Made by a program: the position numbers and the translations under genes. Below the pieces are notes generated by a model. That model was not told the DNA's origin and made no database searches. It was given only the letters and a program-made list of their open reading frames with translations. From the NCBI GenBank assembly GCA_017882905.1, contig JADGOO010000203.1, forward strand, positions 1-46,715: a stretch of 46,715 nt of DNA, written 5' to 3'. Every line of letters begins with the position of its first letter. Position 1 is the stretch's first letter. Below are positions 7,618 to 39,748 of the stretch, in pieces. Origin of the DNA: Acidimicrobiia bacterium (GTDB lineage Bacteria > Actinomycetota > Acidimicrobiia > IMCC26256 > PALSA-610).

Positions 7618-7663
7618 CGCACCTGTCGGCAGGCGGTGGGCCACGATCGTCTGAAGGGTGCAG

Positions 7664-9787
7664 ATGGCGATTGACAGGGTGAGCAGAGGTGACGGCGTGT
7701 TGGCGCGGTTCGCGACGCTGAGCGACCGCGACGTGATCGACGCGCTGCCTTGGGCCGTGATCGTCACCGACCCTGAGGGCGTGATCCTGGCCTGGAGCAA
7801 GCCGGCCGAGAAGCTCTACGGCTGGGCCGCTTCCGATGTGGTCGGGCGCGCCGTGGCCGACGTCCTCGTCCCTGTCGAGGACCGCGCGCAAGCCGCTGAG
7901 ATCTTCGGCTCGGTCTCCGCCGGTGCCGCCTGGCGTGGCGATTTCGGCGTGCTGCACCGCGACGGCGACATCGTGCGCGCGCATGTGATCGAACAACCGA
8001 TCTTCGATGACGACGGCGACGTGGTCGCGGTCATCGTCTCTTCGGAAGACGTGGCCGACCGCCGGCTGCTCGAGCACCAGGCGGACACACTCGCCGAGCA
8101 CCTTGCTCTCGCGCTCGACGCCGGCGGCTTCGGCACCTGGCGCTGGGACATCGCGACCGGCGAGACCATCTGGGACGCCAAGCTCGAGGCGCTGTTCGGG
8201 CTCGAGGCCGGTACGTTCGACGCCACGTTCGACGCCTACGTGGCGCTGCTGCATCCCGACGACGCCGACGATGTGCTCGCTGCCGTGCAGCGAGCCGTGC
8301 GCGACCGCACGCGTTACACCGTCGAGCACCGTGTGATCTGGCCCGATGGATCCCTGCACTGGCTGCAGGGCAAGGGCCAGGTGACCGTCGATCTCGACGG
8401 CACCGTGACCGGAACGATGGGTTGCGTCGGCGACGTCACCGAGCAGATGCGCGCAGCGCTCGAGCGAGAGCGTGCGATCGAGGCGGCGCTCGAGGCGGCC
8501 GAACGTGATCGGGTGAGCGCGCAACGGCTCGCGTTCCTCGGTGAGATCAACGAGGCACTCGCGAGCGCGGCCACCCGCGCCGACGTGATGCGCAATGTGA
8601 CGCGCGCGTCGGTTCCGGCCCTCGGCGATTGGTGCGCGATCTTCGTGCTGGCCGACGAGCGGGCCACGATCCCCGATTTCGAGATCGCGCACAGCGACCC
8701 GGCAATGGTCGCCTACGCCAAGGAGCTCCAGGAGCGCTTCCCGTACGATCCGTCGGCGGCCACCGGCGTTCCCAACGTCATCCGGACCGGCCAGAGCGAG
8801 TTCCATCCGCGCATCGACGACGACGTGATCGCCGCGGCTGATGCTTCCGACGAGGCGCGCGACATCGTTCGTTCGATGGGCTTGAAGAGCTCGATATCCG
8901 TTCCGTTGCGCAAGGCGGGTCGCGTGCTCGGCGCGTTGCAGTTCGTGAACACAGAGTCGAGCCGTGCCTACACGTCCGACGACTTGGCGCTGGCGCAGGC
9001 CGTGGCCGGCCGCATCTCGTCGACGCTCGAGAACCGCCGGCTCGCCGAGCATCAACGCGACATCGCTACCACGTTGCAGGCCAGCTTGCTGCCGGGAACG
9101 CTGCCGTCGATCCCCGGTATCGACATCGGTGTGCGCTACTGGGCCGCGGGTGAGGGCACCGTCGTCGGTGGCGACTTCTACGACGTGTTCGATGTGGCCG
9201 ACGGTCGCTTCGCGGCGGTGATCGGCGACGTGTGCGGCACCGGTCCCGAGGCGGCCGCACTCACCGGCCTGGCGCGCCACAGCATCCGGGCGGCCGCATG
9301 GAACGGCGCCGATCCGGCCGGCGTGCTCAGCCAGCTCAACAATGCCGTCTATCGCACGGGCCAAAAGACGTTCTGCACCGCGCTCTACATCGCGCTGCAG
9401 CCCACAGCCACCGGAGTGCGGCTCGATGTGGCCGCCGGCGGCCACCCGCTGCCGATCGTGTGCCGCGCCGACGGCCGGTGCGAGACGATCGGCATGCCGG
9501 GCACGCTGCTCGGGTTGCTGCCCGACGCCACATCGACGGTGGTGAGCGCAGAGCTGGGTGCCGGCGACACGATCGTGCTCTACACGGATGGCATCACCGA
9601 TGTGCGCCCTCCCCACGATCTCACCGCCGAGGCGATGGAGCAGATCGTCGCGCGGGCCGCGACCCACGCCGCGACCGCTGACGACGTGGCCAGCAACCTC
9701 GGTGCCGCGATCGACGCAGCGCTCGCGTTCAGCGCCCGCAACGACGACATCGCGGTACTCGTGCTGAAGGCCGTCGCCGCCGCCTGA
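7664..9787 (+). CDS. PAS-PAS-GAF-PP2C (SpoIIE-type) serine phosphatase
   Basis: A 707-residue signalling phosphatase. Residues 20-130 form a PAS domain (ALPWAVIVTDPEGVILAW), 145-265 a second PAS with a PAC end (WPDGSLHWLQGKG, DVTEQ), about 290-450 a GAF domain (SISVPLRKAGRVLGALQFVN), and 470-707 a PP2C/SpoIIE domain. The phosphatase metal ligands are present: VVGGDFYDVF, VIGDVCGTGPEAA, LYTDGITDVR and RNDDIAVLVL. These enzymes usually dephosphorylate anti-anti-sigma factors, and no such partner is nearby. The ATG at 7664 is preferred over the GTG at 7658 because AAGG at 7654-7657 is correctly spaced only for the ATG. There is no transmembrane segment, so it senses cytoplasmic signals. Confidence 0.9.
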   Translation: MAIDRVSRGDGVLARFATLSDRDVIDALPWAVIVTDPEGVILAWSKPAEKLYGWAASDVVGRAVADVLVPVEDRAQAAEIFGSVSAGAAWRGDFGVLHRDGDIVRAHVIEQPIFDDDGDVVAVIVSSEDVADRRLLEHQADTLAEHLALALDAGGFGTWRWDIATGETIWDAKLEALFGLEAGTFDATFDAYVALLHPDDADDVLAAVQRAVRDRTRYTVEHRVIWPDGSLHWLQGKGQVTVDLDGTVTGTMGCVGDVTEQMRAALERERAIEAALEAAERDRVSAQRLAFLGEINEALASAATRADVMRNVTRASVPALGDWCAIFVLADERATIPDFEIAHSDPAMVAYAKELQERFPYDPSAATGVPNVIRTGQSEFHPRIDDDVIAAADASDEARDIVRSMGLKSSISVPLRKAGRVLGALQFVNTESSRAYTSDDLALAQAVAGRISSTLENRRLAEHQRDIATTLQASLLPGTLPSIPGIDIGVRYWAAGEGTVVGGDFYDVFDVADGRFAAVIGDVCGTGPEAAALTGLARHSIRAAAWNGADPAGVLSQLNNAVYRTGQKTFCTALYIALQPTATGVRLDVAAGGHPLPIVCRADGRCETIGMPGTLLGLLPDATSTVVSAELGAGDTIVLYTDGITDVRPPHDLTAEAMEQIVARAATHAATADDVASNLGAAIDAALAFSARNDDIAVLVLKAVAAA

Positions 9788-28536: not shown

Positions 28537-29223
28537 TCAGACGGCCGCTTCGAGCGAGCACACGATGAGCTCGCCCGTGCGCTCGCCCGCGAGCCAGAGC
28601 TCCATGCCGTCGTGCACTACCGCGCGCTCGACGCGCGTGCCCGCGACGAACGTGCCCGACGACGAGCCGAGGTCGACGACGTGCCAGCCGGCGCTCGTGC
28701 GTTCGAAGCGCGCGTGGTGGCGCGACACGATGGGGTTGGCGATGACGATCGCGCAGTCCTCGTCGCGGCCGCACTCGACGCGCTCCTCACTCAGGAACGT
28801 GAACCGACGTCCGGCATGCACGACGTGGAGAGCCGGAGCGGGTCGCTCGCCGTTCGCGCCGTGCGGTCCGGTGACGTTCGCGGCAGGGACGATGGTGGGT
28901 GTCTCGCCCGGCGGCGTCACCGCGAGCACGGTGATCTCGATGCGGTCGCCGAGCTCGGGTCGTCCGAGCATCGCGACGAGTGAGTCTTGTACCGTGGTGC
29001 CGAGCACGCGGTTCCCGTCGACGTAGATGCCTTGGGTGCTGCCTACGTCGGCGAGTCGCCATTCGCCGCCGTCGTAGCGGAGCTCCGCGTGGTGGCGGGA
29101 GACGTTGGCGTTCTCGAGCACGACCTCGCTCGCCGCGTTGCGGCCGATGCGGACGAGCTGGTCCGCGGTGAACTCGGCCGCGCCGCCCGGCCATTGCACC
29201 CGCACCGCTGCCTTGGTGTCCAT
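28537..29223 (-). CDS. Tandem FHA-domain protein
   Basis: A 228-residue protein made of two forkhead-associated domains and little else. FHA1 (about 15-95) has the IGRN, SRHH (42-45) and STQGIYVDGNRV motifs. FHA2 (about 130-215) has CGRD, SRHH (157-160) and SSSGTFVAGTRV. The Arg, Ser and His that bind phosphothreonine are present in both. It should bridge two phosphothreonine proteins or bind a doubly phosphorylated one. FHA1 closely resembles the FHA of the cyclase at 34814 (both read VSRHHAELR and STQGI-VDG), so they are probably paralogous domains reading the same kinases. It ends an operon with the unknown 446-residue protein and the sigma-like gene. The start is the Met directly before the first FHA strand. 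Confidence 0.9.
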   Translation of the reverse strand: MDTKAAVRVQWPGGAAEFTADQLVRIGRNAASEVVLENANVSRHHAELRYDGGEWRLADVGSTQGIYVDGNRVLGTTVQDSLVAMLGRPELGDRIEITVLAVTPPGETPTIVPAANVTGPHGANGERPAPALHVVHAGRRFTFLSEERVECGRDEDCAIVIANPIVSRHHARFERTSAGWHVVDLGSSSGTFVAGTRVERAVVHDGMELWLAGERTGELIVCSLEAAV

Positions 29224-29249
29224 CGGCCTCCTACACCACCCCACTCCAC

Positions 29250-30590
29250 CTACGGGTTGCGCTCGGCGATCGCCAGCTCGGCTTCGGCGACGAACGCCAC
29301 GATGGGCCGACGTGGACGAAGCAGCCGGCGCCACGACCATCCGAGATATTGCCCGCGGTGCTGCCCGCGCCGCTCGGCGGCTGCCTCGGCGTTCCCGGCG
29401 GCATCGAGCGCATCGGCGGCGTAGTGCTCGGCGATCGCGGCGCGCTCGAGGTCGGCGACCGCTTCCCAGCTCGTTGCCGCACTGCTCCAGAGCTCGGCCG
29501 CACGATCCATGTCGAGCGCACGCTCTGCGGCGGCGGCCCATGCGCCCGAGGTCGCGGCGATCCACGCGCGACGTTGCCCGTCGGTGGGTGGACGGGCGTC
29601 GGGCGCATCGGTCACGTCGAAGCGGAGCGCGTCGAGCTCGTGCGATGGGTGCAGCAGCAGCTCCGCTCGCAGCGTGCTGCCGCCGGACGCGCCGCTCGGC
29701 GCGGCGGCGCGTGTCATCGGCGTCAGGGCAACGAAGCTCCGATCGTGGTCGTACACGCGGAGCCAGATCTCCGGCGCGGCGAGATCTGTCGCGAGCGTCA
29801 CGTCGATCTGTCCGGTATCGGAGCGGCGCATCAGCACGGTGCGCGTTGCGCCGAGCGTCAGAGGTGCAACCAGGGGATCGAGCACCACGGTCGCGGTGGA
29901 CCCCTCGAAGCGGGCGCGCGTGGCCGTCGCCCAAGCTTCGAGCAAGCGAAGATCGTCGGCGAGTGTGGTGTTCTGCGCCGCGACCGGGCCGACCGGCACG
30001 CTTCGGGCTCGCAGCGACGCGGCGAGCATCGCGTCGTTGGGCGCGAGGAGGTCGGCGCACCGCGCGAGCAGCCGGCGTCCGGGCGCGCTCGTCGCATGGA
30101 CCGGCGAAGCGAGGAACTGCTCCGCCGCCTGGCGCACGAGCGTGGGGCCGCCGCCGAGCTCGTGCAGCTCTTCGAGGCGCCACCACGGCGACGGTCCACC
30201 GCGCCGGAGCTCGTCGAGCTCCGCGTGATGCAGCATCGCGGCATGTCGTGCCACCCGTACGAGCCGCGCGAACGATTGGTCTGCCACATGGATCTCGTGC
30301 GGTTGGCGCGACGGCCCCGCCGCGACCCGCGCCGCCACGGCCGGCCCGAGCCAGTGCTCGACGGCGGCGAGGTGTTCGGGATCGACCGGGAGATCGGGCG
30401 GTTCGGCGTCGACGACGACGCGGGGCAGCGCCCCCGGGTCGGCCAGGTCGACGTAGGCATCGATCCCGTCGGCCAACACGCCGTGGGCCGCGCCCGCCGG
30501 ACCGACCGGCTCCTCGGTGCCGAGCTCCCAGCCAGCGGCGGCGGCGTCGTACCGGGTCAGCAGCCGCTGTTCGTGCTCCGAGGGTCTCAT
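29250..30590 (-). CDS. Unknown protein, 446 residues, in the kinase/FHA island
   Basis: A soluble protein without signal peptide or membrane segment. The N-terminal part is mostly helical (SEHEQRLLTRYDAAAAGW, a segment ARLVRVARHAAMLHHAELDELRRG), the centre has beta-strand character (TVVLDPLVAPLTLGATRTVLM, GQIDVTLATDLAAPEIWLRVYDHD), and the C-terminal 120 residues are Ala-rich helices that look TPR-like. I recognise no family. It overlaps the sigma-like gene upstream by 4 bases (ATGA) and is 26 bases from the tandem-FHA gene, so all three are translated from one message and probably act together. Threonine-rich patches could be kinase targets, which is only inference. Confidence 0.75.
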   Translation of the reverse strand: MRPSEHEQRLLTRYDAAAAGWELGTEEPVGPAGAAHGVLADGIDAYVDLADPGALPRVVVDAEPPDLPVDPEHLAAVEHWLGPAVAARVAAGPSRQPHEIHVADQSFARLVRVARHAAMLHHAELDELRRGGPSPWWRLEELHELGGGPTLVRQAAEQFLASPVHATSAPGRRLLARCADLLAPNDAMLAASLRARSVPVGPVAAQNTTLADDLRLLEAWATATRARFEGSTATVVLDPLVAPLTLGATRTVLMRRSDTGQIDVTLATDLAAPEIWLRVYDHDRSFVALTPMTRAAAPSGASGGSTLRAELLLHPSHELDALRFDVTDAPDARPPTDGQRRAWIAATSGAWAAAAERALDMDRAAELWSSAATSWEAVADLERAAIAEHYAADALDAAGNAEAAAERRGQHRGQYLGWSWRRLLRPRRPIVAFVAEAELAIAERNP

Positions 30591-31387
30591 CGATCTTCGC
30601 CTGTCGTCCCGAACGGATGCCGCGCCGACATCAGTCCCACCGCTTCCAGCGCCTGCTGGAGCAGGGGTGTGACACAGCGCTGGCAGCGGCTCTTCATCTT
30701 GCGGGACCGGTCGGCGACTCGTTGCCCGTCGATCGCGACGCTGCCCGGCCGCACGGCGTCGAGCGCCGCGTAGATGTCGGTGCTCAGCGCGTCGGCGCCG
30801 GGAACCTCCTCGGGGCCCCACGACGGCACCGCGAGATCGTGGTTCGCCCAGTAGCGGTCGATCAGATGCAGTGAGATCGCGGCGACGACCGCAGGTGGAC
30901 AACCTCGGCAGTTGATCGAGCCGCTCGTGAGCGCGCGGGTGACCTCGGCGCGAAGTCCGGCGGCGGCCGCGCTGTCGACGACGACACCGGCCACGTCGAT
31001 CTCGCTCTGCGGGTCACGATCGCGCTGGTCGTCGTCGGCGGCGGCGGAGAACGACACGGTGCGTGGCCGCCGGCGCTCGCGGCGGAACAGGTCGTACACG
31101 CGGTGTCGGAGCGTGGACCGGGCGTAACGCTCGGCTTCGTCGGCGCTCTCGATGCCGGGCAAGGCCGTACCACGCTCGCCCGCGTTTCGACACGTGGTGA
31201 TGAGCGACGCCGTGCAGTCGCTGCAGAGATCGTCGGCGTCGTACCACGCGATCTGCTCACGGCGGAGCAGCGCGACCGCGGCTTGCCGCGCCCGGTCGGA
31301 GGTCATGAAGGCGATCAGCCAATCGCGTTGTTGTTCGATCGAGGTCAGTGCACGCTCCCCGTCGCGACGCCGCCGGACATTACCCAA
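30587..31387 (-). CDS. Cysteine-rich sigma-region-2-like protein
   Basis: A 266-residue protein whose first half resembles sigma factor region 2: QAAVALLRREQIAWYDADDLCSDC in place of the usual AEDLVQD segment, and YARSTLRHRVYDLFRRERRRPRTV in place of the -10-binding helix. No clear region 4 is seen. Instead there are three CxxC motifs (CSDC, CRGC, CQRC) and further Cys, suggesting zinc or redox sensing. It could be a divergent ECF-type sigma or a sigma-derived regulator. The start is uncertain: a TTG at 31387 or a Met at 31306. It heads the operon with the unknown protein and the tandem-FHA gene, divergent from the first kinase. Confidence 0.65.
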   Translation of the reverse strand: MGNVRRRRDGERALTSIEQQRDWLIAFMTSDRARQAAVALLRREQIAWYDADDLCSDCTASLITTCRNAGERGTALPGIESADEAERYARSTLRHRVYDLFRRERRRPRTVSFSAAADDDQRDRDPQSEIDVAGVVVDSAAAAGLRAEVTRALTSGSINCRGCPPAVVAAISLHLIDRYWANHDLAVPSWGPEEVPGADALSTDIYAALDAVRPGSVAIDGQRVADRSRKMKSRCQRCVTPLLQQALEAVGLMSARHPFGTTGEDR

Positions 31388-31394
31388 ACCGGAC

Positions 31395-31426
31395 GGGCGC
31401 GATCCCCAAGCTGAATGGGCGCGATC
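31395..31426. promoter_or_regulatory. Direct repeat in the sigma-like/kinase divergent region
   Basis: GGGCGCGATC occurs at 31395-31404 and again at 31417-31426, 22 bases apart, which is two turns of DNA. The pair lies in the 140-base region between the two divergent units and may bind a regulator that controls both. Confidence 0.5.
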
Positions 31427-31527
31427 GCCGTGACGAATCGCCGCGGTGGGGGACGCCCGAAGGGCTGGAATGGTCCGAGGCCTCGGGATTACGCTCGCTG
31501 CGGGCGGGGCTCAGGGGGCAACTCGAG

Positions 31528-33456
31528 ATGGCGGCACAACCGGATCGCATCGGCGACTACGAGGTCGTGCGCGTCCTCGGTCACGGCGGCCAGGCCACGG
31601 TCTACCTGTGTCGCGCCGCCCGCAGCCGGCGTGCCTACGCGGTGAAGCTCCTCGACCGCAGCGACGCGCAGCTCGCGCAGCGACTCGAGCGCGAGATCGA
31701 GATCCTCTCGGGTCTCGAGCACCCGAACATCGTCGACGTGCGCGACGTCGGCCTCTACGAGTCGCGGCCGTACTTCGTGATGCGCTGCTACCGCGGCGGA
31801 ACCCTGCGCGCCGTGCTCGAGCGCGACCAACGACTCTCGGTGGGTGCCACCGTCGGCGTCGTCGCCGCGCTGGCCGATGCGCTCGGAAGTGCCCACCAGC
31901 GCGGTGTGGTGCACCGCGACGTGAAGCCCACGAACGTGCTGCTCGACCGCGACGGCAACCCGTACCTCGCCGACTTCGGTGTCGCGGCGATCGCGGGCGG
32001 CGAAGCTCTCACCCGAACCGGCGACATCGTGGGCACCGCCGGCTACCTGTCGCCGGAACGATGGTTCGGTGCACCGCTCGGCACGGCCTCCGACGCGTTC
32101 GCCCTCGGCTGCGTGGCCTTCGAGTGCCTGGCCGGCGCGCTGCCGTACGACTCGTTCGAATCGTCACGCTCGGGAACGCACGCCGACCTCGCCGTGCTCC
32201 GCCCTGATGTACCGGTCGAGCTCGCGGCCGCCATCGATCGGTTGCTCGATCCGGAGCCGAGCGCGCGCCCGGCGGATCTGCGCGAGTGGGCGGTGGAGAT
32301 CCGCGCAATCGCGCGGCCCGAGCGCGTGGTGCCGGCCGAAGCGATCGATCTGCCGCCCGATCTGAACCCGAGCTCGGAATCGGCCGGGGTCACGATCGTG
32401 CCGGGCGCGTACGGGGCGCGCGACGTCGCCGGAGGGTCGAGCCCCGACGCGACGCTGTTGCCGTTCCCCACTGCCGACACGACGGCGGTGGAAGAGCCGC
32501 GTCGCAAGCGAGCCGGTGTGCTCGTGGTCGCCGGACTGCTCGCGGCGGCGGTCACGATCGGTGGTGCACTCGCGCTCACGAGCGGTGGGCAGTCGAAGAG
32601 TGGCGCGGAGGTGGGCAACACGACCACCACAGGAGGCCGCGCCGCCACCGGGTCGGCGCGCCGCACGCCCACCACGCGCGCCGGCCACTCGACGAGCTCG
32701 ACGCCGGCGACGACCGCACTCGGCGGCACCGGCACGACGACGCCGTACCGAGGCGGCCTGACCGGCACCACGGTTGGAACCGACGGCGGCGGCGTCGTTC
32801 CGTTCCACCCGCCGAACGGTCCGGGCGGCGCGACCCGAGCCACCACGACGACGGCCACCACGGCGACGCCCGTGCAGCTGTTCAGCGCGCTCATGGACGC
32901 GCGGTCGAACCCGTACCTCGTGAACGGCACGTACAGCTGTGGTGCTCCGCAGCTCGGTGTGCCCGCGCCGGGGATCAGCGTGGCGGGGCGACACGTGCTC
33001 ACGGTCGGGGCGACCGGCGCGATCTTCTTCGGCAAGAACCCGCCGTTCAACTACTCGAACGGGCCCGACGGCATCAGCGACCCGTATCCCGGCCGCAACG
33101 GTGACGGCAACTATCTCGGTGCCACCACGAACATCGACCCGACGAACGGCTTCTCCGGCATCTACGCCGACCGCGTCGGCTTCTTGGTCGGCGTGTTCGC
33201 CGGTCCCGGGGGTCAGGGCGCCACCTGGGTCGGCAACGAGTCGGCCTCCTCGTTCTCGCCCACGCTCAACCAGGTGTTCTTCATCGGTGACGGCCTCACC
33301 GGCACGGGCGGGGGAGCGCGCCAGCAGTTCGTGGTTCCCGCGGGGGCGACGCAGCTGTACATCGGTGTCGCCGACGGCACACGCGCCACCGGTTGCCCTG
33401 GGTTCTACGACGGCAACACCGGATCGTTCACCGTGACGATCGACGCGGTCTCCTGA
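31528..33456 (+). CDS. Membrane Ser/Thr kinase with beta-sandwich ectodomain
   Basis: A 642-residue receptor-type kinase. Residues 5-270 form an Hanks-type kinase: glycine loop LGHGGQATVYL, Lys in AVKLL, HRDVKPTN, ADFGVA, and SPERW in the activation-loop end. A single membrane helix follows (GVLVVAGLLAAAVTIGGALAL, about 329-350), then a Thr/Gly/Pro-rich stalk and a C-terminal beta-sandwich, about 450-642. That domain ends in FVVPAGATQLYIGVADG and YDGNTGSFTVTI, a pattern seen in exported PEP-CTERM and lectin-like proteins, so carbohydrate or surface binding is likely. There are no PASTA repeats. The start at 31528 is chosen because family sequence begins just after it. The next kinase follows after 8 bases. 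Confidence 0.9.
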   Translation: MAAQPDRIGDYEVVRVLGHGGQATVYLCRAARSRRAYAVKLLDRSDAQLAQRLEREIEILSGLEHPNIVDVRDVGLYESRPYFVMRCYRGGTLRAVLERDQRLSVGATVGVVAALADALGSAHQRGVVHRDVKPTNVLLDRDGNPYLADFGVAAIAGGEALTRTGDIVGTAGYLSPERWFGAPLGTASDAFALGCVAFECLAGALPYDSFESSRSGTHADLAVLRPDVPVELAAAIDRLLDPEPSARPADLREWAVEIRAIARPERVVPAEAIDLPPDLNPSSESAGVTIVPGAYGARDVAGGSSPDATLLPFPTADTTAVEEPRRKRAGVLVVAGLLAAAVTIGGALALTSGGQSKSGAEVGNTTTTGGRAATGSARRTPTTRAGHSTSSTPATTALGGTGTTTPYRGGLTGTTVGTDGGGVVPFHPPNGPGGATRATTTTATTATPVQLFSALMDARSNPYLVNGTYSCGAPQLGVPAPGISVAGRHVLTVGATGAIFFGKNPPFNYSNGPDGISDPYPGRNGDGNYLGATTNIDPTNGFSGIYADRVGFLVGVFAGPGGQGATWVGNESASSFSPTLNQVFFIGDGLTGTGGGARQQFVVPAGATQLYIGVADGTRATGCPGFYDGNTGSFTVTIDAVS

Positions 33457-33464
33457 CGACGTCG

Positions 33465-34655
33465 ATGCCCATCGCGCCAGGACAGTTCGGCGACCGCTAC
33501 GAAGTCCTCGACCAGATCGGCGCGGGCGCGTTCTCGACCGTCTTTCGCGCCCGAGACCTCGCGTTCGGGCGCCGCATCGTCGCGCTGAAGATGTTGACGA
33601 TCCCGGCGTCGAGCGAGCAGAGCCGCCGGCGCTTCGACCGTGAGTGCCGTGCCGCGGGACGCGTGAGCATGCACCCGAACATCGTGGCGGTCTACGACCG
33701 TGGCTTCGCCACCGACGGCGCGCCGTACATCGTGCTGGAGCACTGCGGGGGCGGGTCGCTCGCGGATCGCGGCGCCGGAAGTGGACCGTGGCGCGTGGAC
33801 GACGTGCTTGGCATCGGCGTGCAGATCGCGGCCGCGTTGCAGTTCGCGCATGCCCAGGGCGTCTGGCACAGAGACGTCAAGCCCGAGAACATCCTCGTGA
33901 AGCGCCATGGCGCGCCGGCCCTCACCGATTTTGGGATTGCGCAGCTCACCACGGAGATCACGTACTCGAGCGGCACCTTCCAGTCGTTCGCCGCGGTGCA
34001 CGCCGCACCGGAGCTGCTGTGGGGTTCACCGAGTCCGCAGTGCGACGTGTACTCGCTCGCATCGACCCTGTACCAGCTGCTCGCTGGCCACGCCGCGTTC
34101 GTGAGCGGCGATGACGAGCCTGTCTCGAAGATGCTCGAGCGCATCGTCGAGAGCCCGATCCCGCCGCTCGGCCGCCTCGATGTCGACGACGCGTTGCTGG
34201 CCGTCGTGATGACCGGGATGGCCAAGGATCCGGCGCAGCGCTACGCGAACGCGGCGGCGTTGGGAGCAGCGCTCACCGACGTGGAAGCCGCACGTGGCGC
34301 CGAGCCGGTGCGTGAGCTTCCGGCGGAGCCGCGTTCGCATAGCGCCGGGAGCCCGCCGGCGCCACCAACGGTGACCACGACGCCGCGATCCGCCGCCCGC
34401 CCGGACTCGTCATCCGACACGTTCGTGCCGGAACCACCGCCGCGGCCCGAGCCGCAGCCGTTGCGGGCGCCGAGCCCGCAACGCACGCAGCCGGCCAAGG
34501 CCCGATTCGGATGGCTGGCGGTCGCGATCGCGATCCTGATCGGTGTGGTCGTGGGTCTCGTCGTCGCGCTCGGCATCCGAGCCGCAAGTGGCGCGCCGGC
34601 GCTCGGTCACACCGCCGCGCCAGCTCTGTCACACGATGGTCCCCGCCGACGCTGA
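33465..34655 (+). CDS. Membrane Ser/Thr kinase with short external tail
   Basis: A 396-residue kinase: glycine loop IGAGAFSTVFRARD, Lys in VALKML, HRDVKPEN, TDFGIAQL, and AAPELLWG in the activation segment. A Pro/Ser/Thr-rich linker (about 280-345) leads to one membrane helix, FGWLAVAIAILIGVVVGLVV (about 347-370), and only about 25 residues outside. It therefore lacks a sensor domain of its own and may be activated by dimerising with, or being phosphorylated by, the neighbouring kinases. The gene starts 8 bases after kinase 1, so the two are likely co-transcribed. A 158-base gap follows. Confidence 0.9.
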   Translation: MPIAPGQFGDRYEVLDQIGAGAFSTVFRARDLAFGRRIVALKMLTIPASSEQSRRRFDRECRAAGRVSMHPNIVAVYDRGFATDGAPYIVLEHCGGGSLADRGAGSGPWRVDDVLGIGVQIAAALQFAHAQGVWHRDVKPENILVKRHGAPALTDFGIAQLTTEITYSSGTFQSFAAVHAAPELLWGSPSPQCDVYSLASTLYQLLAGHAAFVSGDDEPVSKMLERIVESPIPPLGRLDVDDALLAVVMTGMAKDPAQRYANAAALGAALTDVEAARGAEPVRELPAEPRSHSAGSPPAPPTVTTTPRSAARPDSSSDTFVPEPPPRPEPQPLRAPSPQRTQPAKARFGWLAVAIAILIGVVVGLVVALGIRAASGAPALGHTAAPALSHDGPRRR

Positions 34656-34680
34656 CCGACCATCCCAGCGACGCAGCGCA

Positions 34681-34764
34681 ACTGGTCGTGACCAGTGAGC
34701 GTGGCGCGGCTTCTACCGCGCGAACGCGCCGATGGCAAGATGCAGGACGTCGAACATGGATACT
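34681..34764 (+). promoter_or_regulatory. Palindrome and -10-like box upstream of the FHA-cyclase gene
   Basis: ACTGGTC-GT-GACCAGT (34681-34696) is a perfect inverted repeat with 7-base arms. A GATACT (34759-34764) lies further down as a possible -10 box, without a good -35. The palindrome is a candidate operator for the FHA-cyclase and third kinase genes. Confidence 0.45.
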
Positions 34765-34813
34765 GAACACTCTCCGGTACGGGGCGGTACAACGGCGGGT
34801 TGGCCATGGCATC

Positions 34814-35758
34814 ATGGCGCGGACGGTCGAGGAGTGGAAGCTGAGCGCGGGGCGGACGATCGAAGTGCGGGTCGGTGAGGAAGTGTTCCGATTCGGCCCG
34901 GCCGACGTCGTCCATCTGGGTCGCGACGACGACAACGACGTCGTCTGTGACAACCGCAACGTCTCGCGCCATCACGCCGAGCTCCGCCACGAAGGCGGGG
35001 TGTGGCTGCTCGTCGACATGAACAGCACGCAGGGCATCTTCGTCGACGGCGAGCCGGTGCAGCGCTACGTAGTGCGGCCGAATGCCGATGTGGTGCTGGG
35101 GCTGCCTGATCGTGGGCAGCTCGTGGCGCTGACCGTCGAGGGCCACACCGCCGACACCGCCACATTCGTGCCGAGCGACGCCACGCGTCGGAACCTGAAG
35201 CAGCTCGGTGGTGGATGGGCGCCGCCCGTGGAGCCGAGCACACCGTCGATCCGGGCGGTGGTGTTCACCGACATCTGCGGGTCAGTCGCACAGACCGTTG
35301 CGCTGGGCGACGCCGGCCACATCGGGATCCTCGACGAGCACAATCAGATCGTGCGGAGCGCGCTGGCAACGTTCAGCGGGCGCGAGGTGAAGCACACCGG
35401 CGACGGCATCATGGCCGCGTTCGGCTCGATCGCGTCGGCCATCTCGTTCGCGGTGGCCGTGCAGGTTGCCATCGCCCGCCGCAATCGTGACGCCGAGAAC
35501 GAGCTCCAGATCCGTGTGGGTGTGAGCGCGGGCGAGCCGCACGTCGACGAGCGTGACGACCTGTTCGGCGCAACCGTGCAGCTCGCGGCGCGCCTCTGCA
35601 CTGCCGCACCGGCCGGCGAGATCTTCGTGTCGGCGGCAGTGCGCGAGCTGTGCATCGGCAAGGCGTTCGAGTTCGAAGACCAGGGGCGCATCGCGGTCAA
35701 GGGCATGCCCGAACCGATGCAGACCTACCGAGTGATGTTCTCCGACGGTGCACCATGA
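34814..35758 (+). CDS. FHA-domain class III adenylate/guanylate cyclase
   Basis: A 314-residue cytoplasmic protein. The N-terminal FHA (about 20-100) has HLGRDDDNDV, VSRHHAELR and NSTQGIFVDG. A linker leads to a class III cyclase domain (146-314): the two metal Asp in VFTDICGS and HTGDGIMAAF, the base-recognition Lys just before it (REVKHTGD), and a DLFGATVQLAARL segment where the transition-state Arg is present but the usual Asn is Gln. The protein should bind a phosphothreonine through FHA and so couple kinase activity to cAMP or cGMP production. Its stop overlaps the third kinase start (ATGA), so they are translationally coupled. Confidence 0.9.
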   Translation: MARTVEEWKLSAGRTIEVRVGEEVFRFGPADVVHLGRDDDNDVVCDNRNVSRHHAELRHEGGVWLLVDMNSTQGIFVDGEPVQRYVVRPNADVVLGLPDRGQLVALTVEGHTADTATFVPSDATRRNLKQLGGGWAPPVEPSTPSIRAVVFTDICGSVAQTVALGDAGHIGILDEHNQIVRSALATFSGREVKHTGDGIMAAFGSIASAISFAVAVQVAIARRNRDAENELQIRVGVSAGEPHVDERDDLFGATVQLAARLCTAAPAGEIFVSAAVRELCIGKAFEFEDQGRIAVKGMPEPMQTYRVMFSDGAP

Positions 35759-38700
35759 GCATGCCGATGATCGACGGTTTCGAAGACCTGAGCCTTGTGG
35801 GCCGCGGTGGCTTCTCGGTCGTGTACCGCGCGCGGCAGGTCGCGTTCGATCGACCTGTCGCGATCAAGGTGATGCGCACTCCCGACGACGACACACTCGA
35901 CCTGGCCGGCTTCGAACGTGAGTGCGCGGCAATCGGAACGCTCGACTGGTGCCCGAACATCGTCACGGTCTACGCGGTCGGCGTGAGCGACGCGCACGAG
36001 CCATACATCGTGATGGAGTACGCCGAAGGTGGTTCGTTGGCGACGCAGCTGAAAGCTGCCGGCGCGCTGACGTCGGGGGCCACGGCGGAGCTCGGGGCGA
36101 AGATCGCTCGCGCGCTGCAGGTGGCGCACGATGCGGGGATCCTGCACCGCGACGTGAAGCCGGGGAACATCTTGCTCTCGCGCGGTGGTGAGCCGCTGCT
36201 CGCCGATTTCGGTGTGGCCCGCTTGTCCGACGCGACGCGGACGCACGGCCTCGACATCACGGGGACGATCGCGCACGCTGCGCCCGAAGTGCTGCAGGGT
36301 CGCGATCACACCGTCGCCTCCGACATCTACGCACTCGGATCCACGCTCTTCACGCTCGTTGCCGGCCGCGCGCCGTTCGGCCCCAACGACGGCGCCGACG
36401 CCGCCCAGGTGATCGCCCGCGCGCTCACCGCGCCGCTCCCAGATCCGCGCGACTTCGGCGCCGACGAGGGACTTGCGCTCGTGATCGAACGGGCGATGGC
36501 GCGGAACCCCGCCGAGCGTTTCGAATCGGCGCGGGCCATGGCTTCGGCGCTCGCCGACGTTGCAGTCGCAACCGGATCGAGAGTCGCCCCGTTGCGCGCA
36601 CCGATGACGGTCGGTCACGGCGCGCAGTCGCCGCTCGCGTTCGAGAGCTTCGACGACTACGACGACGCCACGCCCAACCCGACCGCCACGATCGGCTGGG
36701 CGCCGGTGGCCGTCTCGACGTGCACCGACGTGACGCTCACGGACCGCGCCGGCCCGCCCGAGCTCCCCGTGTTGCCGATACTGCCGCCGGTCGAGGTTCC
36801 GGCGGGATCATCACGGCGGCCCGGCCGCACCCGCCGCTTCGTCGCCTTGGCGGTCGTGCTCGCCGCCATCCTCACCGTCGGCACCCTTGCCGTGGTGTTC
36901 CGTCCGAAGTCGAAGCCGGCGCGAGCACACGCGAGCACGGTCACGACGAGCAAGCCGGTCGTCGCGCCGCCGCCCGTACCGAAGTTCCAGTTCGGGTTCC
37001 GAGGCTTGCTGTTCGACAACCAGAAGCTGTACTTCGTGCAGGAATGGCAGGTGCCGGCGAGCGGCACGTCGTTGCACGTGACCCTTGCGCTGCAGAACCT
37101 CACCGCGGCGCCGATCTCCTACCCGCTCCATGTGGTCGTGCCCAAGAGCCTCGCTCACAACGTCGATGCGGTGCGGTGGGGTCAGGGCTACTCGAAGGTC
37201 GTCCATGCCGACCCGGTCGTGATGTACCAGCTCGCGGTTCCCGCGCACGGCACCCAGCACCTCGACTACACGATCACGATCAAGCAAGCGACGGCCGCGC
37301 TGTTCAAGAAGTGGCGAGCCGACGAGATCGCCGCACAGAAGCTCGACTTCGCCGAGACCAAGACGAAGCCGGTCGCACCGAAGCTCGCACTCACGCTCTC
37401 GTCGAGCTCGTGCGCGATCGCGCCGCTGCAGGCGTGCCAGCTCTCGCTCGACACCAACCGCACCATGCAGCTCGTCGCACATGTGACGGCCGATGCCAAG
37501 CCCGTGTCGGGCGCAGGAGTCGTGTTCTCGTCGTCGAACACGGGAATCGTGCGGGTCGACAACACGGGCCTCGTGACCGCGCTGGCCGACGGTGACGCCG
37601 TCATCTCGGCGACGGTGGGCGACGCGGCCGACAAGCTGTCGGCCGCGGTCGCGATCCATGTGACGGGGGGCGCGAAGCCCGGTCCTCCGGTCGCCGCGTT
37701 CTCGTGCGTGCCGAACCAGCTGGCGGTGCAGTGCGACGGCACCTCGTCGTTCGACCCGAGTGGTGCGGCACTCGCGTACGACTGGAGCTTCGGTGATGGT
37801 GCGCGATCGTCGGCGCCGGCGGCCGCGCACACCTACGCCCGCTCCGGCACCTACTCGGTGACGCTCACCGTGCACGACGCCGCTGGTGTGTCGGGCAGCA
37901 CCGCACAGAGCGTGACCGTCACGAAGATCAACGCCGCGCCCACTGCATCGTTCGTCTGCTCGACGGCCGGTGTGTCGGTGCAGTGCAACGCATCGCGCTC
38001 CAGCGATTCCGACGGCTCGATCCGTCAGTATGCGTGGAGCTTCGGCGACGGCGGGCGCAGTACCGGCGTGAACGGTGCGCACACCTACGCGGCATCGGGC
38101 CACTACGCGGTGCAGCTGACGGTCACCGACGACGGCGGCAAGACGGGCAGCGTCGTGCACACGGTCACGGTCGTGAAGCCGAACGTCGTGCCGACCGGCG
38201 ACTTCAACTCGAACGTCAACAGCTCGCATGTGGACTTCACGGCCTCGGGCTCCGATCCCGACGGCGATGCTCTGCAGTACACATGGAGCTTCGGCGACGG
38301 GGCGACCGCGACCGGCAAGACCACGGCCCACGACTACTCGTCACCCGGCACCTACACCGTTGCGCTTGCCATCTCCGACGGTCGGGGCGGTGTGGCGCAT
38401 GCGAGCCATCCTGTCTCGATCAACGCGCCACCGACCGGCGACTTCAACGTGACCCCCACCGGTCTGCACGTCGACGTGGCGGCGAGCGCGTCGGATCCCG
38501 ACGGCGATCCGCTGCGATACAGCTGGGACTTCGGTGACGGCACCCCCGCGGCGAGCGGTGGTGCCTCGTCGGCGCACGATTACGCGGCGGGCGGCACCTA
38601 CACGATCACGCTGACGATCGACGACGGCCGCGGCGGTGTCGCCACGGTGAGCCACCAGGTCACGGTGGCCCCGGTGAACACACCACCGACGGGCACCTTC

Positions 38701-38928
38701 ACCTCGGTCGTGCTCGCACTGCACGTCGACTTCGTCGCCGTCGCGACCGATCTCGACGGCGACACGTTGCAGTACAGCTGGGACTTCGGTGACGGGACCA
38801 CGGCGGCGAACGCGGGTGCAGCAGCGTCGCACGACTACACCACCGCCGGCACGTACACGGTGGTGCTCACGATCGACGACGGTCAAGGCAACAGCATCAC
38901 CGTCACGAACGACGTCGTGGTGAGCTGA
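35755..38928 (+). CDS. Membrane Ser/Thr kinase with Big_2-like and five PKD ectodomains
   Basis: A 1057-residue receptor kinase. Residues 10-265 are a Hanks-type kinase: LVGRGGFSVVYRAR, Lys in VAIKVM, HRDVKPGN, ADFGVARL, AAPEVLQG. The membrane helix is FVALAVVLAAILTVGTLAVVF (about 361-382). Outside the cell come a beta-rich region (about 410-540), a Big_2-like Ig domain (about 543-640, SSSNTGIVRVDNTGLVTAL), and five PKD domains from about 643 to the end, each with a W-S/D-F-G-D-G core and a TYTV-type final strand. PKD domains usually bind proteins or polysaccharides. This is an unusually large extracellular sensor for a bacterial kinase. The start is fixed by the ATGA overlap with the FHA-cyclase gene. 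Confidence 0.92.
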   Translation: MSMPMIDGFEDLSLVGRGGFSVVYRARQVAFDRPVAIKVMRTPDDDTLDLAGFERECAAIGTLDWCPNIVTVYAVGVSDAHEPYIVMEYAEGGSLATQLKAAGALTSGATAELGAKIARALQVAHDAGILHRDVKPGNILLSRGGEPLLADFGVARLSDATRTHGLDITGTIAHAAPEVLQGRDHTVASDIYALGSTLFTLVAGRAPFGPNDGADAAQVIARALTAPLPDPRDFGADEGLALVIERAMARNPAERFESARAMASALADVAVATGSRVAPLRAPMTVGHGAQSPLAFESFDDYDDATPNPTATIGWAPVAVSTCTDVTLTDRAGPPELPVLPILPPVEVPAGSSRRPGRTRRFVALAVVLAAILTVGTLAVVFRPKSKPARAHASTVTTSKPVVAPPPVPKFQFGFRGLLFDNQKLYFVQEWQVPASGTSLHVTLALQNLTAAPISYPLHVVVPKSLAHNVDAVRWGQGYSKVVHADPVVMYQLAVPAHGTQHLDYTITIKQATAALFKKWRADEIAAQKLDFAETKTKPVAPKLALTLSSSSCAIAPLQACQLSLDTNRTMQLVAHVTADAKPVSGAGVVFSSSNTGIVRVDNTGLVTALADGDAVISATVGDAADKLSAAVAIHVTGGAKPGPPVAAFSCVPNQLAVQCDGTSSFDPSGAALAYDWSFGDGARSSAPAAAHTYARSGTYSVTLTVHDAAGVSGSTAQSVTVTKINAAPTASFVCSTAGVSVQCNASRSSDSDGSIRQYAWSFGDGGRSTGVNGAHTYAASGHYAVQLTVTDDGGKTGSVVHTVTVVKPNVVPTGDFNSNVNSSHVDFTASGSDPDGDALQYTWSFGDGATATGKTTAHDYSSPGTYTVALAISDGRGGVAHASHPVSINAPPTGDFNVTPTGLHVDVAASASDPDGDPLRYSWDFGDGTPAASGGASSAHDYAAGGTYTITLTIDDGRGGVATVSHQVTVAPVNTPPTGTFTSVVLALHVDFVAVATDLDGDTLQYSWDFGDGTTAANAGAAASHDYTTAGTYTVVLTIDDGQGNSITVTNDVVVS

Positions 38929-38953: not shown

Positions 38954-39748
38954 CTACGACACCGAGATGTTGTCGAGCACCACACCGCAAAATGGGCTCG
39001 GCCCCGAACCGTCGAAGCGCAGGGTCTCGGTCGCGCTCCCGGCGGTGAACGGATAGGTAGCCGTCTTGAAGGTGGTGTTCGCGCCGTTCGTGGCGTTGAG
39101 CGTGCTGTCGACATTGCCGATGCGGGTGCGCACACCAGCAGTCGCGGCGCACTGGTAGTTCAGCGCGTAGTGGAACGTGAGCGTGTAGGTGTTGCCCGCG
39201 GTCAGACCGCTGATGCTGCGCTGGATCGAGCCGTACGAGCTGCCGTTGAGGTCGATGTCCTGCGTGTCGGATGCGGTCACCGGCTGCGGCCAGAACGCGT
39301 TGTTCACGACGTCGATGCTTCCGCCGACCACGCTCCAGGGCCCGAGTGACTGGCCGCTGTTCACGGTGTAGAAGCCGTTGGTCGCGGCGGCGGTGACCGC
39401 GGGCGGCTCGAAGCCGTCGGTCGGGAACGAGATGCCGCACGTGCCCGTGTTGGTGATCGTGTAGCCGCTGCCGCTGAGCGTGATGTCGTGCAGCGACGAC
39501 TGGCTGGCCAGCAGGCCGCCGCTGACGAGCGTCGATTCGCTGGCGTACACGCCGTGCTGTGCGTTGTACGACTCTTCGGCTTGGGTCATCGTGGTCTGGT
39601 CGGCGGCGCACGCGCTCGTCTGACCACGGTCGGTGATGCCGTTCACGGCGAAGACCACGATGCTGGCGAGCACGCCGAGCACCACGATCACGACGAGCAG
39701 CTCCACCAATGTGAAGCCGCTCGTGGCCCGATTCTGATCCCGCGTCAC
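38954..39748 (-). CDS. Type IV prepilin-like protein with DUF642-like C-terminal domain
   Basis: A 264-residue protein with a class III signal: a short basic leader, then Gly|FTLVELLVVIVVLGVLAS with Glu at position 5 of the mature protein, as required for prepilin peptidase and pilus assembly. Residues 45-110 form a short pilin-like part. The C-terminal 150 residues (NGFYTVNSGQSLGPWSVVG, DIDLNGSSYGSIQRSISGL, NTYTLTFHYALN) resemble DUF642, a galactose-binding-like beta-sandwich known from plant and bacterial surface proteins. The GTG start has GGGAGG six bases upstream. No pilus assembly genes are in the window. It converges on the PKD kinase. Confidence 0.85.
   Translation of the reverse strand: MTRDQNRATSGFTLVELLVVIVVLGVLASIVVFAVNGITDRGQTSACAADQTTMTQAEESYNAQHGVYASESTLVSGGLLASQSSLHDITLSGSGYTITNTGTCGISFPTDGFEPPAVTAAATNGFYTVNSGQSLGPWSVVGGSIDVVNNAFWPQPVTASDTQDIDLNGSSYGSIQRSISGLTAGNTYTLTFHYALNYQCAATAGVRTRIGNVDSTLNATNGANTTFKTATYPFTAGSATETLRFDGSGPSPFCGVVLDNISVS

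Follow-up and report, generated by a model that had tools for sequence, protein, structure and literature searches.

In the window, the whole stretch of 46,715 nucleotides that was analysed (contig JADGOO010000203.1 of an Acidimicrobiia bacterium), seven genes at positions 28537 to 38928 can be read as a receptor-STPK/FHA signalling island specific to its lineage: an STPK-FHA module of the PknF-Rv1747 type in variant form, with a cyclase as its output. We put the probability of this reading at about 50%. It is supported by the domains and catalytic residues of the encoded proteins, the tight packing of the genes, the presence of sister FHA domains, and an excess of FHA domains in the genome. 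Further support comes from the recurrence of STPK genes beside tandem-FHA genes in other genomes, from the grouping of two of the three island kinases with an FHA-adjacent kinase, and from the precedent of PknF-Rv1747 itself. The reading is weakened because the gene set is not conserved, all three FHA domains lack the NG-motif Asn, the transition-state Asn of the cyclase is a Gln, the shared linker motif is weak, and no promoter signal was found.

A first-pass annotation had described two divergent groups of adjacent genes, seven in all, and the same limits were recovered by independent gene calling, for which a position-specific GC gene caller and an ORF list were used. A Pfam search upheld the identities of the three Ser/Thr kinases (STPK1 to STPK3), the tandem-FHA protein, the FHA-cyclase, and a 446-amino-acid protein without a family. 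On the plus side, the intergenic gaps were 8, 158, and -4 bp, the last reflecting the 4-bp overlap of the FHA-cyclase stop by the STPK3 start. On the minus side they were -4 and 26 bp, with a 4-bp overlap between the start of the orphan gene and the end of the sigma-like gene. The edges of the island are clear, since it is flanked by a gene for a MetE-like protein on the left and by a convergent DUF642 pseudopilin gene on the right. The latter (38954 to 39748, minus strand, convergent with STPK3) encodes a pseudopilin-like protein in which an N-terminal methylation motif is fused to DUF642. Promoter and terminator scans of the island returned nothing above chance, and DNA similar to it was absent from the plasmids that were searched for a plasmid origin. 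A reading as a defence system was rejected, the PADLOC matches being generic kinase-domain matches. Another signalling gene in the window (7658 to 9787, plus strand) encodes a PAS-PAS-GAF-SpoIIE phosphatase.

All three STPKs kept the catalytic lysine, HRDxKPxN, and DFG, with one predicted transmembrane (TM) helix each and matches to Pfam Pkinase at E values of 6e-37 to 1e-44. STPK1 (31528 to 33456, plus strand; kinase domain from 31558, TM helix at about 32518 to 32574) carries a Thr/Gly-rich stalk and a C-terminal domain of ~195 amino acids (about 32869 to 33453) with no Pfam match. STPK2 (33465 to 34655, plus strand) consists of a kinase domain, a Pro-rich linker, and a TM helix at about 34515 to 34571; it has no ectodomain, because the protein ends ~25 residues past the helix. 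STPK3 (35755 to 38928, plus strand; kinase domain 35782 to 36540, TM helix at about 36841 to 36897) continues into an unnamed ectodomain, Big_2, and five PKD repeats. The large adhesion-type ectodomains that had been ascribed to the kinases therefore hold for STPK3 but not for STPK1, whose domain belongs to no family, or for STPK2; STPK1 and STPK3 are the two kinases predicted to possess extracellular domains. The idea that the STPK1 ectodomain is a lectin (LecA-like) was dropped, as neither PDB sequences nor Pfam supported it. In a tree of kinase domains, STPK2 and STPK3 grouped with the FHA-adjacent STPK-Bmp kinase of genome G295 (support 98/99). STPK1 fell apart from them, and the island kinases do not form one local family.

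The tandem-FHA protein (228 amino acids; 28537 to 29223, minus strand) matched PF00498 twice (E value of 3.6e-35), with FHA1 at about 28993 to 29154 and FHA2 at about 28594 to 28776. The FHA-cyclase (314 amino acids; 34814 to 35758, plus strand) combines an FHA domain at 34913 to 35098 (8e-17) with a class III cyclase domain at 35255 to 35734 (Guanylate_cyc, 3e-17). The FHA domain of the cyclase and FHA1 had been called near-identical. They shared 41% identity over 98 positions and, in a second comparison, 46% over 83 positions, against a background of 33% (standard deviation of 7) among 23 FHA domains. They are relatives rather than near-copies: in a maximum-likelihood tree with few strong branches overall, the two were sisters (93/87), and the pair stood apart from the housekeeping-type FHA domains of the genome. 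Both also have an unusual STQGI, where FHA domains usually have STNGT. In the alignment, all three island FHA domains kept the GR and SxxH motifs, and all three had a replacement for the Asn of the canonical NG motif (QG, QG, and SG). This Asn is listed among the phosphothreonine-binding residues of FHA (PMC1262709), and because it is replaced in all three, phosphothreonine binding by the island FHA domains is not assured. Three of the seven strong FHA matches in the window's genome fall in the island; nine such matches were present in G016, a genome of the same order, and about three in a typical genome of the order. Two RodA/PbpA-like gene sets are also apparent in the window's genome, as read from sequence only (L062:10205-14944 and L067:2-3873), one adjoining FHA and PP2C-like genes and the other an STPK.

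A short motif, T-[IF]-V-P, occurred in four of the five island linkers. It appears as TIVP in the cytoplasmic linker of STPK1 (32392 to 32403, plus strand), followed there by TLLP at 32452 to 32463. A motif search placed it as TFVP in the cytoplasmic linker of STPK2 (34419 to 34430, plus strand) and in the FHA-to-cyclase linker (35162 to 35173, plus strand), and as TIVP between the two FHA domains of the tandem-FHA protein (28885 to 28896, minus strand). Relaxing the pattern to T-hydrophobic-hydrophobic-P added one case, in the STPK1 linker, and none elsewhere in the seven proteins. The looser pattern also turned up outside the island, in two of the three G016 kinases and a single G295 kinase. 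It was missing from all eight compared kinases without a known FHA neighbour, a class that was defined after the kinases had been seen and of which one member (G062), like some of the window genome's own kinases, shares a contig with FHA genes. In shuffles, a T-pattern common to four of five linkers arose in 2.2% of cases and any pattern at all in 21%. T-[IF]-V-P is a possible phospho-site, a statistically weak candidate to be taken as a lead only.

GarA and OdhI are FHA switches in which the FHA domain binds the phospho-Thr of its own flexible segment. The linker Thr beside an FHA domain of the island could be a self-ligand of this kind, although the output here would be a cyclase. Each FHA domain might then be an intramolecular switch that binds its own linker in GarA/OdhI fashion and does not dock on the receptor kinases. 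The position of the motif beside FHA in the linkers of both FHA proteins favors such a switch, but the presence of the same motif in the linkers of STPK1 and STPK2 suits docking equally, and the statistics of the motif are weak; we consider a purely intramolecular role unlikely.

Linkage of the genes in related genomes, the test that the first-pass annotation had set for itself, failed for the exact set. The full seven-gene set was found in no other genome searched (149 relatives, 296 class genomes, and 396 phylum genomes), the orphan and sigma-like proteins lacked credible relatives, and the nearest cyclases lay outside FHA/kinase clusters. What did recur were STPK genes adjoining tandem-FHA genes, with differing outputs, in neighbourhoods that were reached by searching the cyclase FHA domain in the 296 class genomes. 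G016 encodes, at L098:5915-13221, an STPK, an FHA-FHA-LuxR protein, a second STPK, and then an FHA-FHA protein cut by the contig end. At a second contig end (L113:8363-10944), the apparent tail of an FHA-FHA-LuxR protein adjoins a third STPK, and the two ends may join. A sortase gene lies directly upstream of the G016 island. In G014, an STPK with a DUF6777 ectodomain is divergent from an FHA-FHA-ABC exporter gene, and the same pair was present in G295 (L099:7110-11829 and L101:7595-12251 for the two genomes); the kinase domains are sisters (98/99). G295 further encodes, at L100:6718-14855, an STPK joined to a substrate-binding receptor domain of the Bmp/PnrA type. Its gene adjoins a plain tandem-FHA gene, and genes for an FHA-FHA-ABC protein and for an AfsR-like regulator (BTAD/NB-ARC) lie around it. 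The ABC parts of the FHA-FHA-ABC proteins were assigned by reading the sequence.

The proposal of one kinase-to-FHA signalling unit therefore stays plausible in view of tight packing, sister FHA domains, and recurrent STPK/FHA neighbourhoods, but its exact gene set is unlinked elsewhere. An unconserved set would also be seen if the genes were neighbours without a common pathway, having gathered in a lineage-specific accessory region as an array of kinases plus unconnected FHA/cyclase and sigma-like genes, with the cyclase FHA domain reading housekeeping PknB-type kinases. The separation of STPK1 from STPK2 and STPK3 in the kinase tree points the same way. The packing, including the overlap of the cyclase and STPK3 genes, argues against this, as do the sister FHA domains and the STPK/FHA neighbourhoods found elsewhere, and we regard the absence of any shared pathway as doubtful.

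The two remaining minus-strand genes encode the orphan and sigma-like proteins. The orphan protein (446 amino acids; 29250 to 30590) has no TM helix and no family, and no relative was found in the 148 other genomes of the 149-genome relative set. The sigma-like protein (30587 to 31387; 239 to 266 amino acids, with an alternative start at 31306) had been described as cysteine rich, which is borne out by 7 Cys in 266 amino acids, mostly in CxxC pairs. Its sigma similarity, by contrast, stayed under every curated cut-off: an E value of 0.012 and 15.8 bits for Sigma70_r2 (cut-off of 24), and 2e-4 and 20.9 bits for sigma70-ECF (cut-off of 42.9). The same profile searches gave no match to sigma region 4, an AlphaFold single-sequence model reached a pLDDT of 44, and no credible relative was present among the 149 related genomes. 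For neither protein did a pattern scan of the GTDB contig collection, which reaches close relatives only, return a relative. Weak P0003 matches in G002 and G011 were rejected, as no called gene of the two loci (L049 and L050) matches any of the seven proteins; these neighbourhoods contain housekeeping-like genes. A further branch leading to transcription via the sigma-like and orphan proteins is no more than a guess.

No second FHA-cyclase fusion was found in the 149 relatives, 296 class genomes, and 396 phylum genomes. The nearest cyclases in relatives match mainly over the cyclase domain, and those whose neighbourhoods were examined are single cyclase genes without FHA neighbours, bar one locus (L054), which has two further cyclases beside it and a kinase ~9 kb off. 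This locus in G018 (L054:170-3649) is a row of three class III cyclase genes. FHA-cyclases are known in cyanobacteria (Anabaena CyaD), unconfirmed by open-text literature. The island cyclase kept the motifs FTDI, KHTGDG, DDLFG, and AAR, and the transition-state Asn is a Gln (VQLAAR instead of VNLAAR). Its closest solved proteins are Ma1120 (9e-23) and LipJ. It is improbable that the domain has ceased to be a cyclase and acts instead as a nucleotide-binding or dimerising scaffold: the Gln and the catalytically inactive cyclase domains known in other systems (PMC7159879) would suit this idea, but both metal Asp residues, the Lys/Asp pair that typifies adenylate specificity, and the catalytic Arg are retained, and Ma1120 likewise lacks the Asn, having Ala at the aligned position.

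For the island as an STPK-FHA module, we envisage the following mechanism. Stimulation of STPK1 or STPK3 from outside would lead to autophosphorylation, after which the STPKs would phosphorylate Thr sites, possibly T-[IF]-V-P, in the linkers of the kinases and of the FHA proteins themselves. The cyclase FHA domain may then dock on a kinase or on its own phospho-linker in a GarA/OdhI-like switch, and docking would localise or alter cyclic-nucleotide synthesis. The tandem-FHA protein may act as a scaffold or as a competitor for the same phospho-sites.

The input side of such systems appears to include an ectodomain family that reached no Pfam or NCBIfam cut-off and had no significant match among PDB sequences. 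The first ~130 extracellular residues of STPK3 (36970 to 37362, plus strand) match the ectodomain of a G016 STPK, with phmmer E values of 5e-7 and 9e-6 in a four-sequence comparison. When 58 genomes of the order were searched with a profile built from these two sequences, 8 proved to carry the domain, with E values down to about 1e-16 in genomes besides the two seeds' own. A nine-row profile run on 247 class genomes gave no match beyond the order, and a scan of the GTDB contig collection with the G016 ectodomain returned none either. In G016, all three STPKs carry it, one in a shortened form; G027 and G036 likewise have it in kinases, the G036 copy with a probable frameshift, and the copies of G032, G054, and G024 are cut by contig ends. 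In G035 (L117:2343-4010), the domain is part of a long non-kinase TM protein, of which a probable relative in G024 (L119:2-667) is truncated where its contig ends. Four positions (W, G, Y, and W) are invariant across the family alignment, accompanied by the motif [VI]PK[SA].A and by DPV. AlphaFold without an alignment modelled the STPK3 ectodomain mainly as beta strands (pLDDT of 45). In the tree, the STPK3 kinase domain is not sister to those of the G016 kinases, so either the ectodomain has passed from one kinase lineage to another or the kinases are of old origin. The unnamed domain offers a handle for learning what such kinases sense.

More tentatively, the order may possess a receptor system that recurs among its members. 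STPKs, several of them bearing the unnamed ectodomain, would signal in it to FHA proteins with an output that differs by lineage through exchange (cyclase, LuxR, or ABC exporter), the island coupling the system to cyclic-nucleotide synthesis via phospho-dependent docking on T-[IF]-V-P. If true, bacteria would here connect extracellular binding directly to a cyclic nucleotide by way of Ser/Thr phosphorylation, using parts that can be separated, and the lineages would offer a natural series in which one kind of reader domain has had its output swapped.

The combination of genes had been called undescribed. This is too strong for the parts, since Pkn2, FHA/STPK gene clustering, FHA-LuxR fusions, and PknF/Rv1747 have all been described; the parts and the principle are known, and what appears to be new is how they are combined, together with the ectodomain family. 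In Pkn2 of Myxococcus xanthus, a kinase and a cyclase are fused in one protein, and clustering of FHA and STPK genes has been reported as well (PMC1262709). The island resembles Pkn2 in bringing a kinase and a class III cyclase into one signalling unit, but here the two are separate proteins, linked, if at all, via FHA. FHA-LuxR fusions are described in Actinobacteria (PMC3466318). The G016 STPK/FHA-FHA-LuxR island (L098 and L113) is similar in that STPKs with the same ectodomain family adjoin FHA proteins carrying an output domain, whereas that output is DNA binding and the kinases are of another lineage. In the PknF-Rv1747 operon of Mycobacterium tuberculosis, a membrane STPK gene stands beside the gene for an FHA-containing ABC transporter that is regulated by the kinase (PMC3908365), and G014 and G295 possess their own FHA-FHA-ABC form of this arrangement. 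An STPK gene also adjoins an FHA-effector gene in the island, regulation by the kinase being known for PknF-Rv1747, but the island has three kinases, two of them with ectodomains, and its effectors are an FHA-cyclase and a plain tandem-FHA protein instead of an FHA-ABC exporter.
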